Source: Sedimentisphaerales bacterium (lineage in GTDB: Bacteria; Planctomycetota; Phycisphaerae; Sedimentisphaerales; SM23-30). From it: a stretch of 64,000 nt of DNA. Positions within the stretch are counted from its first letter, which is position 1. Each line of letters begins with the position of its first letter. The stretch spans positions 1 through 64,000 of the forward strand of contig JAFGKT010000080.1 in NCBI GenBank assembly GCA_016928435.1, in the 5' to 3' direction. The notes beneath the pieces were generated by a model. That model saw nothing but the letters and a program-made list of their open reading frames with translations, ran no database searches and was not told the origin of the DNA. The position numbers and the translations under genes are program-made. Positions 19,990-26,361 of the stretch are shown here, in pieces.

Positions 19990-20176
19990 CTTAAACTCCA
20001 AAATAGCTAAATGAACTACCGAAGAACCACGATCAACGGCCAATCAACCAGAATCAGGGAACCGCGTGGATAACTTTGAACAAGATGTTCAAAATTACCC
20101 ACCCTACGACTGATCGGCCTGTGTGAACACACATCATGATTGCCCAAACCGATTCTGTCAAGTTTGAACCCGAATT

Positions 20177-20230: not shown

Positions 20231-20713
20231 AATTTGGTTTGTTTTTTGTAAGTTAGAGGGCAGGTGGGTGACAGTCAGGTATTCCGGGCACAAATTGGTC
20301 AGGGAACCGCGTGGGTAAAATTGAACAAATTGTTCAAAATTACCCACTCTACGGCGCTAATACCGCGAATATAGCTGCCAGGGGCGAAGGCGGAGGCACA
20401 TGGGGCTTGATCGGGGGTGCAATGGAAGCGGCTGCGAAAAGCGGGCAAATAATTTCCCGTTACGTGTAAACAACTTCCCGCTGAACATTCAAATGGGTTT
20501 ATCTATCCACAGCTAAGTTTCGCTGACACCAAAAACCTGATATAGCGGGAAAAACCTAACTCAACTGGGAACTGAATTACCCACATCCATATCAGCAAAC
20601 GAACCATCTACAAGCGACAAATAACCTTTCGCAAAAACTTTTTGTCCTGCAAACCCTTTATTAAAAACCACTTACAAAATACTTCTTTTTTATACAATCC
20701 AAACGGACGTACC

Positions 20714-20728
20714 TGGCACACGCATTGC
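20714..20728 (+). promoter_or_regulatory. Sigma-54 (-24/-12) promoter
   Basis: TGGCAC-ACGCA-TTGC matches the consensus TGGCAC-N5-TTGC, about 60 nt before ATG 20787. Confidence 0.75.
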
Positions 20729-20786
20729 GAATACTATAAAGCAAAGGCAAAGAGGAAAATGTTTTTGAATTATACGGAGTTGGAAA

Positions 20787-21056
20787 ATGTTTTTTGAAGA
20801 ACCATTATCAGGTTCGCAGGTTCGGTTTCGCTTAGCCAGCGCGGCCTGTCCGGATGCCAAAGCGATCGTCGATAAAATAACCGATCAGCTCGATGTAACC
20901 GGCAAGGTACTCTACCTGAGCGATTCCGGGGACCAGAAATCGCACTTTGCGATAGTCGATGTTCCAGGCATTATGTCGCCTGTGGTTGTGCCGGTCGATC
21001 GTGTTCAATTGTGTCACGAGTCTGCCGGAGAAGTAAAGACTGAGACGCAGAAATAA
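20787..21056 (+). CDS. Small hypothetical protein (89 aa)
   Basis: First ORF downstream of the sigma-54 promoter; preceded by a purine-rich cGGAGTTGGAAA stretch. Confidence 0.6.
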   Translation: MFFEEPLSGSQVRFRLASAACPDAKAIVDKITDQLDVTGKVLYLSDSGDQKSHFAIVDVPGIMSPVVVPVDRVQLCHESAGEVKTETQK

Positions 21057-21176
21057 GTAGTGAAGCGGCAAACTAATGCTGCGAAAATTGAAGCATTGCG
21101 AGAGAAGTGAGAGTTAACACGTGAGAAGAGACCGGAGAGAAAGAGAAACCGGGGCATATAACAAACGATCTAATTA

Positions 21177-21260
21177 GCTCTCTCTCTCCCTCCCAGGCTT
21201 GCCAGTTCTCCCCGAATTGATAAGTCTGGGAACTTGAAATCATTCGGTCGAAAGACCGTT
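21177..21260 (+). ncRNA. Structured repeat element copy A
   Basis: GCTCTCTCTCTCCCTCCCAGGCTT...AGTTC-TCCCC-GAATT...AAGTCTGGGAACTTGA + CGGTC-GAAA-GACCG hairpin. Confidence 0.7.
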
Positions 21261-21493
21261 ATATAAATATCGGCGATGTTGAGAGTGTTTGAGACATTAA
21301 TCTAGATTGGAGTGCGAAACGCACTTTTTCTTGATTTACACTATTGGGTTTCATAGCGGAAGTGCATATTTTGACGTTCAACACTGCGAAAGTTGACTTG
21401 GAGAAATATAAGAGAAATTCAGCAATAATATCCTTTGGCGGCAACGTCCTATGTCAAGCATTTCGGAGGAAAAGAGAAGCTGCACAGGACGTA

Positions 21494-21579
21494 TTCTCTC
21501 TCTGAATCCCAGACGAGACACCTTTGTGACAGACTAGATAAGTCTGGGAAACAACGATAAAACGGCTAAGTAAACCGTT
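21494..21579 (+). ncRNA. Structured repeat element copy B (divergent)
   Basis: TTCTCTCTCTGAATCCCAGAC...GTCTGGGAAAC + AACGG...CCGTT hairpin. Confidence 0.55.
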
Positions 21580-21644
21580 CAAAAATAGAATATTAATAAT
21601 CAACATTGATAGTTTTTAAGCCTGAATAAAAATGGAATAATTTT

Positions 21645-21728
21645 GCTCTCTCTCTCCCTCCCAGACTGACCAGTTCTCCCCGAGCTGATAAGTCTGGGAA
21701 CTTGAGTTCAATCGACCTTGTGGTCGTT
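21645..21728 (+). ncRNA. Structured repeat element copy C
   Basis: GCTCTCTCTCTCCCTCCCAGACT...AGTTC-TCCCC-GAGCT...AGTCTGGGAACTTGA + CGACC-TTGT-GGTCG. Confidence 0.7.
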
Positions 21729-21809
21729 AATAAATAAGTAGGCAAAGGAAGCAACGAAGAGAATCACGGCAAAAAAAGCCTATACTGGTAATTGATAGCG
21801 AGCTTTCAA

Positions 21810-22052
21810 ATGAAGGAATCAATTGCGGTTTGTATAGTAGCGTTGATGTTTCTGACGCTTGGCAGTTCGCTACACGCGAACGCCGCTGATCTTAAAATTG
21901 TATCAAACCATGGTGATCGGTCTTCTGACAGTATTCAGACCGCGGAGTTTAGCACATCAGCTCCCGCAACCATCGCCCTGGTACCAGAGCCGGCAACCAT
22001 AGTTCTACTCGGCTGCGGCGGATTTCTTCTGCTGCCCCGCAAGCAGAACTAA
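21810..22052 (+). CDS. Mini PEP-CTERM sorting-domain protein (about 80 aa)
   Basis: Signal peptide-like N-terminus (MKESIAVCIVALMFLTLGSSLHANA) and C-terminal VPEPATIVLLGCGGFLLLPRKQN. ORF opens at 21792 (TTG); ATG 21810 is preferred. Confidence 0.8.
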   Translation: MKESIAVCIVALMFLTLGSSLHANAADLKIVSNHGDRSSDSIQTAEFSTSAPATIALVPEPATIVLLGCGGFLLLPRKQN

Positions 22053-22192
22053 ACTCTAAAACAGCCGTGAAATCGCCCCAAAGCGAAAAAACCAATAAGG
22101 TACGACCATTTGTAAAACCAATATTGTGGACGACGTAGATTTTAGACTAGACAATTAATAAGGAATACAGGTAAAAGTAAATAGAATAATTT

Positions 22193-22275
22193 GCTCTCTC
22201 TCTCCCTCCCAGGCTTACCGGTTCTCCCCGAATTGATGAGTCTGGGAACTTGAGTGAAACCGGCCTGACCAGCCG
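22193..22275 (+). ncRNA. Structured repeat element copy D
   Basis: GCTCTCTCTCTCCCTCCCAGGCT...GGTTC-TCCCC-GAATT...AGTCTGGGAACTTGA + CGGC...GCCG. Confidence 0.7.
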
Positions 22276-22334
22276 ATCAAACATAGAAGCAAAGTGAGGA
22301 GTTCAGAAGAATCGGTTTCATACCGTATTATTTT

Positions 22335-22416
22335 GCTCTCTCTCTCACTCCCAGGCTTGGGTAGTTCTCCCCGAATTGTCCTGCCTGGGACCTAAAAATG
22401 TCAGCCGTTAAGGCTG
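22335..22416 (+). ncRNA. Structured repeat element copy E
   Basis: GCTCTCTCTCTCACTCCCAGGC...AGTTC-TCCCC-GAATT...GCCTGGGACC + CAGCC-GTTAA-GGCTG. Confidence 0.7.
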
Positions 22417-22426
22417 CTAATAGGTC

Positions 22427-22465
22427 AAGGTTGTTGGTCTCTTAAGAGGCTGACAACCTTTTTTT
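22427..22465 (+). terminator. Strong intrinsic terminator closing the element/PEP-CTERM unit
   Basis: AAGGTTGTTGGTCTC-TTAA-GAGGCTGACAACCTT (about 15 bp, including G-U pairs) followed by T-run. Confidence 0.9.
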
Positions 22466-22484
22466 GTAGGCGTTCATGGTAATG

Positions 22485-24470: not shown

Positions 24471-24668
24471 AGCCTGGGCCCCTTCTCAACCACACACCAA
24501 GATGAAGTCTTGGCAACCTCAATAGACACCATTGGCGATTAGTCTAAAAGCGATTATCGTCAAAAGACTGTGTGGCCGCAAGAAAGACTTTTGTAAACGT
24601 TCACAGTAAAGCGAAACGGCGAATCGGTGCGGATGTGTGAGCCTCACGGACAGATTGACCGACGGTAG

Positions 24669-24845
24669 ATGGTTGGAGGATGAGACTTGGTTGGTGTTCT
24701 ATCACCCTTTAGCTGCGCGAAAGGGCGGGCACCCGGATGGTTGGAGGATGAGGCTTGGTTGGTGTTCTACCACCCGGATGATTGGGAAATGAGACTTGGT
24801 TGGTGTTCTACCACCTTTAGCTGCGCGAAAGGGCGGGCACCCGGG
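24669..24845 (+). repeat. Imperfect tandem intergenic repeat (about 41-69 bp units)
   Basis: Three iterations of 'atg.ttggga.atgagacttggttggtgttctaccaccctttagctgcgcgaaagggcgggcacccgg', the middle one lacking the hairpin segment. Confidence 0.8.
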
Positions 24846-24927
24846 TGATTGGGAAATGGGGCTTACGCTTCGGGCTCTGATTTGGTGGGTGCTGCCCGTG
24901 CTGTTAGGCTAAAATAAGTTTGGCAAA

Positions 24928-26361
24928 CTAGTGGATATTGTACTTCTCGAGCTTGTTGTAGAGAGTGCGACGCGTAACCCCTAGTCGCTCAGCTAAAGTA
25001 GTACGATTGAGCCCCCGGGCGACAAGTCTTTCGAGAACGACTTTCTCGCAGTGGTCGAGTACATCGTTGAGATGTTTTCGGCCTTCAAACAACGATTCAA
25101 TAAACTGATCGGAAATTTCTATGGCGCTGCCCTCGGCGCCGGCCTGCAACTGCGATTGAATAATAGCAGGAGGCAAATCGGAAATTTCTATTGGTCCCGA
25201 CTGTTCTTTGAAAACCAGTATCTGCCTAACAATGTTTTCCAACTCCCGAACATTACCGCTACCTATAGTGCGGCCCAGCAATTCATAAACGGCAGGCTCG
25301 ACACCATCGATTCGTACAGAACTGTAGTGAGCGTATTTCTTCAAGAAGAAATCAAACAGCAAAGGAATATCCCCACTTCGCTGCCTTAACGAAGGCACAT
25401 CAAGCTGAATCACATTGAGCCGTTGGAAAAGATCCAATCGGAACTTGCCTTGCTCGACCATACTCTGCAAATCGCGGTTACTCGCGGCGATAATACGAAC
25501 ATCAATACGATATTCGCGATCACTGCCCACAGGCAATACCAATCCCTCCTGCAGCACACGCAAAATCTTCGGTTGCAGCGGCAGATCAAGTTCACTGACT
25601 TCATCCAATAGAATCGTACCGCCGTCCGCTGAACGGAAGTAACCCGGACGACTTTCCGTCGCGCCTGTAAAAGCACCCTTACAGTGGCCAAACAGCTCGC
25701 TTTCCGCCAAGCTGCCGCTGATCGCTGCGCAGTTCACCGAAATAAACGGTTTGCTACCACGTTTTCTATCCCAATGATGAATCGCCTCAGCGAAACGCTG
25801 TTTGCCTGTACCGGATTCACCGAATATGATAACCGGCGCATCCGAAACGGCGGCGGCCCTTCTCGCCTGCGACACCACATGAGCCAAGGCTGTGCTTTGA
25901 CCAACCAGTCCTTGCTCAGTCAAGTCTTTCTCTTCCACTTGCTTGTGCCTGCCGTACTGTTCAAAGGCGTAATTCAACGCTTCTGAAGCCTTTGCCGCTA
26001 GAGTTTCGAGGTAGTTCTCGGCTGCGCCATTCACTATAGAACAAACCCCCGCGACCACAACCTGGCAACTCTGGGTCAACGTCAAAGGTGCCGGAACCAC
26101 CAATATCGATTGAGCGAAGGGTTGTTCGGTCCGCAAAAGACGTATGAAGTCCGTAACGCCTTGAAGGTCGCCGGTGTCTGACAGCGCCAAGACCACCAGC
26201 GCAAAAGACTGTTGATCTAACAACCGTGACAGTTCATCCAGACCGTCTGCGACAGCGGCTTTCTGCCCCAATTGAGTCAACACGTTACAGATTGGGCCCT
26301 TCATGTCGGCATTGCCTGTATATACAGCAACACCGCAATCAGGAGTGATTGGTTTACGCAA
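24928..26361 (-). CDS. Sigma-54-dependent enhancer-binding regulator with degenerate receiver
   Basis: GESGTGKQRFAEAIHHWD Walker A, ESELFGHCKGAFTGATESRPGYF (GAFTGA), Fis-type HTH; TTG start. Confidence 0.93.
   Translation of the reverse strand: MRKPITPDCGVAVYTGNADMKGPICNVLTQLGQKAAVADGLDELSRLLDQQSFALVVLALSDTGDLQGVTDFIRLLRTEQPFAQSILVVPAPLTLTQSCQVVVAGVCSIVNGAAENYLETLAAKASEALNYAFEQYGRHKQVEEKDLTEQGLVGQSTALAHVVSQARRAAAVSDAPVIIFGESGTGKQRFAEAIHHWDRKRGSKPFISVNCAAISGSLAESELFGHCKGAFTGATESRPGYFRSADGGTILLDEVSELDLPLQPKILRVLQEGLVLPVGSDREYRIDVRIIAASNRDLQSMVEQGKFRLDLFQRLNVIQLDVPSLRQRSGDIPLLFDFFLKKYAHYSSVRIDGVEPAVYELLGRTIGSGNVRELENIVRQILVFKEQSGPIEISDLPPAIIQSQLQAGAEGSAIEISDQFIESLFEGRKHLNDVLDHCEKVVLERLVARGLNRTTLAERLGVTRRTLYNKLEKYNIH

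Follow-up and report, generated by a model that had tools for sequence, protein, structure and literature searches.

The locus analysed here lies within a 64,000-nucleotide stretch of DNA (the window) from a Sedimentisphaerales bacterium, whose genome is a draft, 85% complete and 3.07 Mb in size. On the plus strand, a sigma-54 (-24/-12) promoter, TGGCAC-ACGCA-TTGC (20714-20728), precedes an open reading frame (ORF) for an 89-aa small protein (20787-21056), a member of a conserved family that is predicted to form a small SH3/KOW-like barrel. It is followed on the same strand by five copies of an RNA element: A, a CU-rich leader with hairpin 1 (21173-21239), B, a degenerate copy (21489-21557), C (21641-21707), D (22189-22255) and E (22331-22398). 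A second hairpin accompanies A (CGGTC GAAA GACCG; 21245-21258), C (CGACC TTGT GGTCG; 21713-21726), D (22261-22275) and E (CAGCC GTTAA GGCTG; 22402-22416). A mini PEP-CTERM ORF of 80 aa, also on the plus strand (21810-22052, with an alternative TTG start at 21792), is present within the array, and an intrinsic terminator at 22427-22466, with a 15-pair stem (22427-22460) and a T-run, closes the unit. An earlier note on this DNA had described a self-contained unit made up largely of RNA elements, running from the promoter to the 15-bp terminator with all elements on the plus strand. This description was upheld: every part was found where the note had placed it, B being degenerate, and all five copies have the proposed orientation. 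A possible weak internal terminator (hairpin plus U-run) between A and B (21309-21332) leaves some doubt as to whether one unbroken transcript reaches 22465. Two 55-nt repeats with 89% similarity (20054-20108 and 20299-20353), both containing a long palindrome, lie immediately upstream of the unit.

The exact leader pattern of the element, GCTCTCTCTCTCNCTCCCAGRY, was found on 20 contigs when 85,462 genomes were scanned, and no copy was found in viral contigs. Nineteen of these contigs bear a planctomycete title; the twentieth (L043), titled Alphaproteobacteria, matches G559, which is placed in the class of the window. With a covariance model built from the leader-pattern loci, the element was detected in 65 of the 397 genomes available for the class, spread over 36 of its 276 genera; borderline matches in G112 and G745 were rejected as probable chance runs of CT. 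In a profile search the small protein was found upstream at all the leader-pattern loci except L044, where the contig end cuts the locus, and L054, which is stand-alone. Of 12 further genomes searched within the family, 5 have homologues of the 89-aa protein, each with the same RNA element after the ORF. Furthermore, 13 additional model matches that had been found by their RNA only proved to carry the small ORF and a sigma-54-like site, which independently confirms the linkage. Judged by this distribution, the unit is not a local oddity; it is a hitherto unnamed gene unit that occurs across the Phycisphaerae.

Six residues (P22, G39, S45, D46, G61 and P65) are invariant among 33 homologues of the small protein. 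The 89-aa protein matches no Pfam or NCBIfam family, and a Pfam scan of the 33 homologues gave nothing above noise, DUF1127 being absent. A PDB sequence search returned noise only, and a single-protein scan of the genome contigs found no relative, the patterns being too specific. On sequence comparison the small protein is placed in a new family. Its structural model (pLDDT 74) resembles SH3-like barrels (the KOW domains of NusG and Spt5, Tudor, FeoA), though not significantly, with no Foldseek match below 1e-3. Barrels of the SH3/KOW/Tudor-like type commonly bind nucleic acid or peptides. Because the fold match is weak, RNA binding by the small protein is a guess, suggested mainly by its linkage to the RNA element and by the case of CcaF1 discussed below. 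One homologue, at L035 (G273:C557), is from a genome outside the class of the window; AGGCACGGCGCTTGC precedes it and an ORF for a secreted protein follows. No recognisable RNA element was found at this locus, which may be a distant variant or the result of a binning error.

Sigma-54 sites were scored at 11 consensus positions, with GG-N10-GC obligatory and the site no more than 160 nt from the protein core. The window promoter has GG-N10-GC and agrees at 10 of the 11 positions. A lone match of this kind carries little weight: among random 160-nt stretches taken from these loci, 2.8% score at least 9/11 and 0.8% at least 10/11. A site of at least 9/11 precedes the small ORF in 31 of the 33 orthologous units, however, and this degree of conservation is far above chance. 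Among elements that lack the ORF, only 1 of 18 has an upstream sigma-54 site, against these 31 of 33 (Fisher p 2e-10). Upstream of the promoters, TGCACA is present at 19 of 33 loci (4.6 expected) and GCACAC at 16 (3.7 expected). Motifs of the TGCACA type often form dyads, for example TTGCACA-N5-TGTGCAA. Also enriched is another motif, around CGTAAC/AGTTAC. The enrichment of TGCACA and GCACAC, often in dyads, is the pattern expected of activator sites.

A candidate for such an activator is encoded on the minus strand at 24928-26361, 2.5 kb from the unit with two genes between; it has a GAFTGA motif in its AAA+ domain and a Fis-type HTH, and no receiver domain was recognisable in it. Homologues of this activator (phmmer 1e-97 to 1e-149) immediately precede the small ORF, in the same orientation, in 12 distinct units, and one further unit has this order as well. 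The gene order in the window, with the activator two genes off and on the other strand, departs from that of these relatives. The intergenic stretch at 24637-24848 seems internally repeated, GGHPDGW/GWCSTT-like words recurring in its ORFs. The genome of the window also encodes rpoN (PF04552, 199 bits, contig 33). Sigma-54 control of the unit, as originally proposed, is supported by the conserved sites, by the presence of rpoN and by the linked activator, and has a high likelihood.

The earlier note had gone further and placed the unit, as a regulon member, beside the control of PEP-CTERM genes by RpoN and a PrsR-type activator. On such a reading the RNA elements would serve an RpoN-driven surface protein gene in a PEP-CTERM regulon. 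RpoN, and probably PrsK-PrsR, are reported to control PEP-CTERM genes elsewhere (PMC9850573), and that system has RpoN and an NtrC-type activator in common with the unit described here. In the window the mini PEP-CTERM ORF sits between elements C and D; it passes NCBIfam TIGR02595 (17.4 against a cut-off of 16 bits) and is below the cut-off of Pfam PF07589 (14 against 20.7). PEP-CTERM proteins also adjoin the unit in G005 and G007. However, together with a lone element in G006 these are the few loci, all of family f1, that have a PEP-CTERM gene nearby; none was seen near the other units examined, and the conserved cistron is the small protein, so a PEP-CTERM gene was rejected as the conserved target cistron or partner. 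Nor is the linked activator PrsR, as it scores 246 bits against the TIGR02915 cut-off of 502.6, a value that no protein in the window genome reaches (best 415.6). Already weakened by the conservation pattern, membership of a PEP-CTERM regulon is thus very improbable, and the mini PEP-CTERM ORF is, as far as gene neighbourhoods tell, an incidental passenger and not a conserved part of the system. A weak element match in antisense was also observed just upstream of a PEP-CTERM gene at L024 (G006:C180).

The RNA element itself consists of a pyrimidine-rich, CU-rich leader with two UCCC motifs, followed by the hairpin. Four of the five window copies have fold z values of -3.5 to -5.1, B having only -1.0. 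In an alignment of 67 model matches, 114 hairpin cells were changed on both sides, compared to 41 in shuffles, and covariation was 0.372 compared to 0.149, with 0 of 500 shuffles reaching the observed level. These counts are biased towards structure, as the alignment was made to fit it and some of the matches are on the reverse strand. Compensatory changes were also seen in an earlier set of 43 sequences. Sliding the pairing by 1-3 columns lowers the proportion of paired cells from 88% to 55% or less, and examples of compensatory pairs are plain in the raw sequences (TCCCAGGC/GCCTGGGA, TGCCAGGC/GCCTGGCA and TACCAGGC/GCCTGGTA). The unpaired leader is conserved even more strongly than the stem. 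No Rfam family matches the element at gathering or at relaxed thresholds, and by this comparison it is a new RNA family. A low-complexity CT leader present in several copies per locus could be taken for a mobile or REP-like DNA repeat, or for a chance collection of CT repeats; this explanation is already refuted by the compensatory changes in the hairpin, by the fixed orientation behind one ORF family, by the confinement of all five copies in the window genome to one locus, and by a distribution of 20 contigs in 85,462 genomes that is wholly planctomycete once binning is considered.

In some copies the leader is predicted to be largely paired (mean P(unpaired) of 0.22 for A and of 0.36-0.44 for several others). 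The purine-rich stretch between the small ORF and element A (21099-21155, GAGAGAAGTGAGAG...GGAGAGAAAGAGAAACCGGGG) can pair with the CU leader of A, which it perhaps sequesters.

Each locus carries from 1 to 5 copies of the element, spaced 95-113 nt apart in arrays outside the window. The spacing in the window, 142-548 nt, is unusually wide because the PEP-CTERM ORF and other sequence separate the copies. A U-run is found at the last copy in 12 of 19 loci and at inner copies in 1 of 23; the last copy would therefore appear usually to terminate the transcript, and the inner copies not to do so. In the units examined the element is always 3' of the small ORF, except in G273, where none was detected. 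Such a position, together with the frequent doubling of the last copy as a terminator, might indicate a cis-acting 3' untranslated element whose sole function is to terminate or stabilise the small-protein mRNA or to autoregulate it, the repeats being redundant. The scarcity of U-runs at inner copies does not fit such a role, however, and conservation of the unpaired leader goes far beyond what a terminator requires.

The forms of the element that occur alone also bear on this point. At 18 loci, many of them in family f107, the leader and hairpin are present without the small ORF, most with a U-run. In f107, sigma-70-like sites are found around 50-100 nt upstream, whereas the promoter assignments of stand-alone loci outside f107 are weak. 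In the f107 fold, a 5' hairpin and a terminator flank the CU stretch, which is mostly unpaired; in the arrays the state of the leader is mixed. In several genomes, for example G645, G559, G768 and G794, a sigma-54 array and a stand-alone copy coexist. The stand-alone forms, including those in genomes with both arrangements, imply that the element itself is a small-RNA module, and the ORF-less elements look like independent small RNAs, mostly without a sigma-54 site. A purely cis-acting role has difficulty accommodating them, and we consider it improbable.

Alternatively, the CU-rich leaders and hairpins could titrate an RNA-binding protein, possibly the co-encoded one, in the manner of CsrB/RsmZ, with copy number setting the strength and no pairing to mRNA. 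Tandem copies with a strictly kept sequence motif, a copy number that ranges from 1 to 5 and a linked small protein predicted to be an SH3/KOW/Tudor-like barrel are all consistent with this. On the other hand, many loci have a single copy, as do the stand-alone genes, which would be a poor design for titration, and the f107 stand-alone form resembles a typical base-pairing small RNA with its terminator. Titration is accordingly rather unlikely, though less so than a role confined to the 3' untranslated region.

The Qrr small RNAs of Vibrio are sigma-54-dependent, and sigma-54-driven small RNAs in several copies are common to the two systems. One Qrr gene moreover adjoins the gene of its NtrC-type activator, LuxO (PMC8043402). 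The Qrr RNAs differ in being separate genes that act via Hfq, with four stem loops and no linked small protein (PMC8043402). Another parallel, in layout, is CcaF1-CcsR, where a small RNA-binding protein and tandem small RNAs are transcribed together under one alternative-sigma promoter (PMC10253847). The CcaF1-CcsR1-4 locus of Rhodobacter and the alphaproteobacterial CIN1/cuckoo RNA loci share with the present unit a small ORF, tandem homologous RNAs, an alternative sigma promoter and a Rho-independent terminator (PMC10253847), and the CIN1-type order of small ORF, tandem homologous RNAs and terminator is seen in the units found here. Their protein, however, is a DUF1127 protein and their promoter is of the RpoHI/RpoHII type (PMC10253847), whereas here an unrelated protein is combined with sigma-54 and a linked activator, the RNA is unrelated and the phylum is different. 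Processing by RNase E into separate small RNAs is a trait of the CIN1 locus, and the present transcript may be cut too. A third parallel concerns the RNA. In LhrC of Listeria a UCCC-rich stretch between hairpins blocks ribosome-binding sites; this small RNA, too, exists in multiple copies, and its CU-rich UCCC motif is redundant, one occurrence being single-stranded between stem loops. LhrC differs in being under LisRK two-component control and in having no protein cistron (PMC4132741). No sequence relation between LhrC and the element was found, the element having no Rfam match. The earlier note had seen no such unit described; being made without databases, it could not recognise the recurrence of the unit in the class or the close functional parallels with CcaF1-CcsR, LhrC and Qrr/LuxO. 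By analogy, the best-supported reading is that the unit works like CcaF1-CcsR or Qrr, with unrelated RNA and protein families.

Comparison between loci supports the promoter, the activator, the protein family, the RNA structure, the strand, the terminator role of the last copy and the stand-alone RNAs; beyond this, we infer cleavage into small RNAs, target pairing and the function of the small protein. Taken as a whole, the region is probably a sigma-54-controlled operon for a protein and small RNAs, with a tandem array that carries a UCUCUCUCCCUCCC seed. The NtrC-type activator encoded nearby would bind upstream, and RpoN polymerase would fire at 20714-20728 under some condition. One transcript would then carry the small SH3-barrel-like protein and the array of RNA modules. 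In each module a strong hairpin would follow a single-stranded GCUCUCUCUCUCCCUCCC leader, and the inner copies would have one more hairpin. Transcription would be stopped by the last hairpin or, as in the window, by a separate one. The modules are most likely cut into, or used as, trans-acting small RNAs of around 95-110 nt, whose UCCC-rich leader would pair with target mRNAs at purine-rich ribosome-binding sites. The small protein may well bind RNA, and could aid processing or pairing or feed back on the array. In this way the array probably silences other genes.

In a crude test for such genes, around 2 of 15 extended leader-complement sites (GGAGAGAGA) in the genome were convincing at start codons; as the sites are not clearly concentrated there, the targets are unproven. 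One candidate target of the CU leader is a 417-aa secreted protein encoded in the same genome, whose start is flanked by GGAGAGAGAGTATGAAAAAGAGAGAG (L123:1501-1512, contig 53 of G000), and a second is a BatD-like protein (L119). Two other matches to GGAGAGAGA were rejected: that at the L128 start codon is probably inside a longer TPR reading frame, and that at L125 is too distant from its start codon.

A search for Hfq (PF17209), the usual helper protein of small RNAs, detected none in 13 genomes from the family of the window, most of them incomplete drafts, under conditions in which the positive controls were detected. Conceivably, though we propose this only tentatively, planctomycetes that lack Hfq use the small SH3-barrel-like protein as the dedicated RNA-binding partner of this small-RNA family. 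A single sigma-54 operon would then supply the RNAs along with a matchmaker or processing factor of their own, and constitutive copies that stand alone elsewhere would share the seed.

To our knowledge very little is known of small-RNA regulation in the Planctomycetota, and in the open-access literature no small RNA was found described in the Phycisphaerae. The RNA and small-protein families are new, and the arrangement is one already known elsewhere with unrelated parts; the unit thus parallels the alphaproteobacterial protein-plus-small-RNA operon. With a class-wide RNA family and its covariance model, an inducible promoter, a likely activator and a new linked protein family, the system is directly testable, and it suggests a way in which a lineage without recognisable Hfq may run base-pairing small RNAs.
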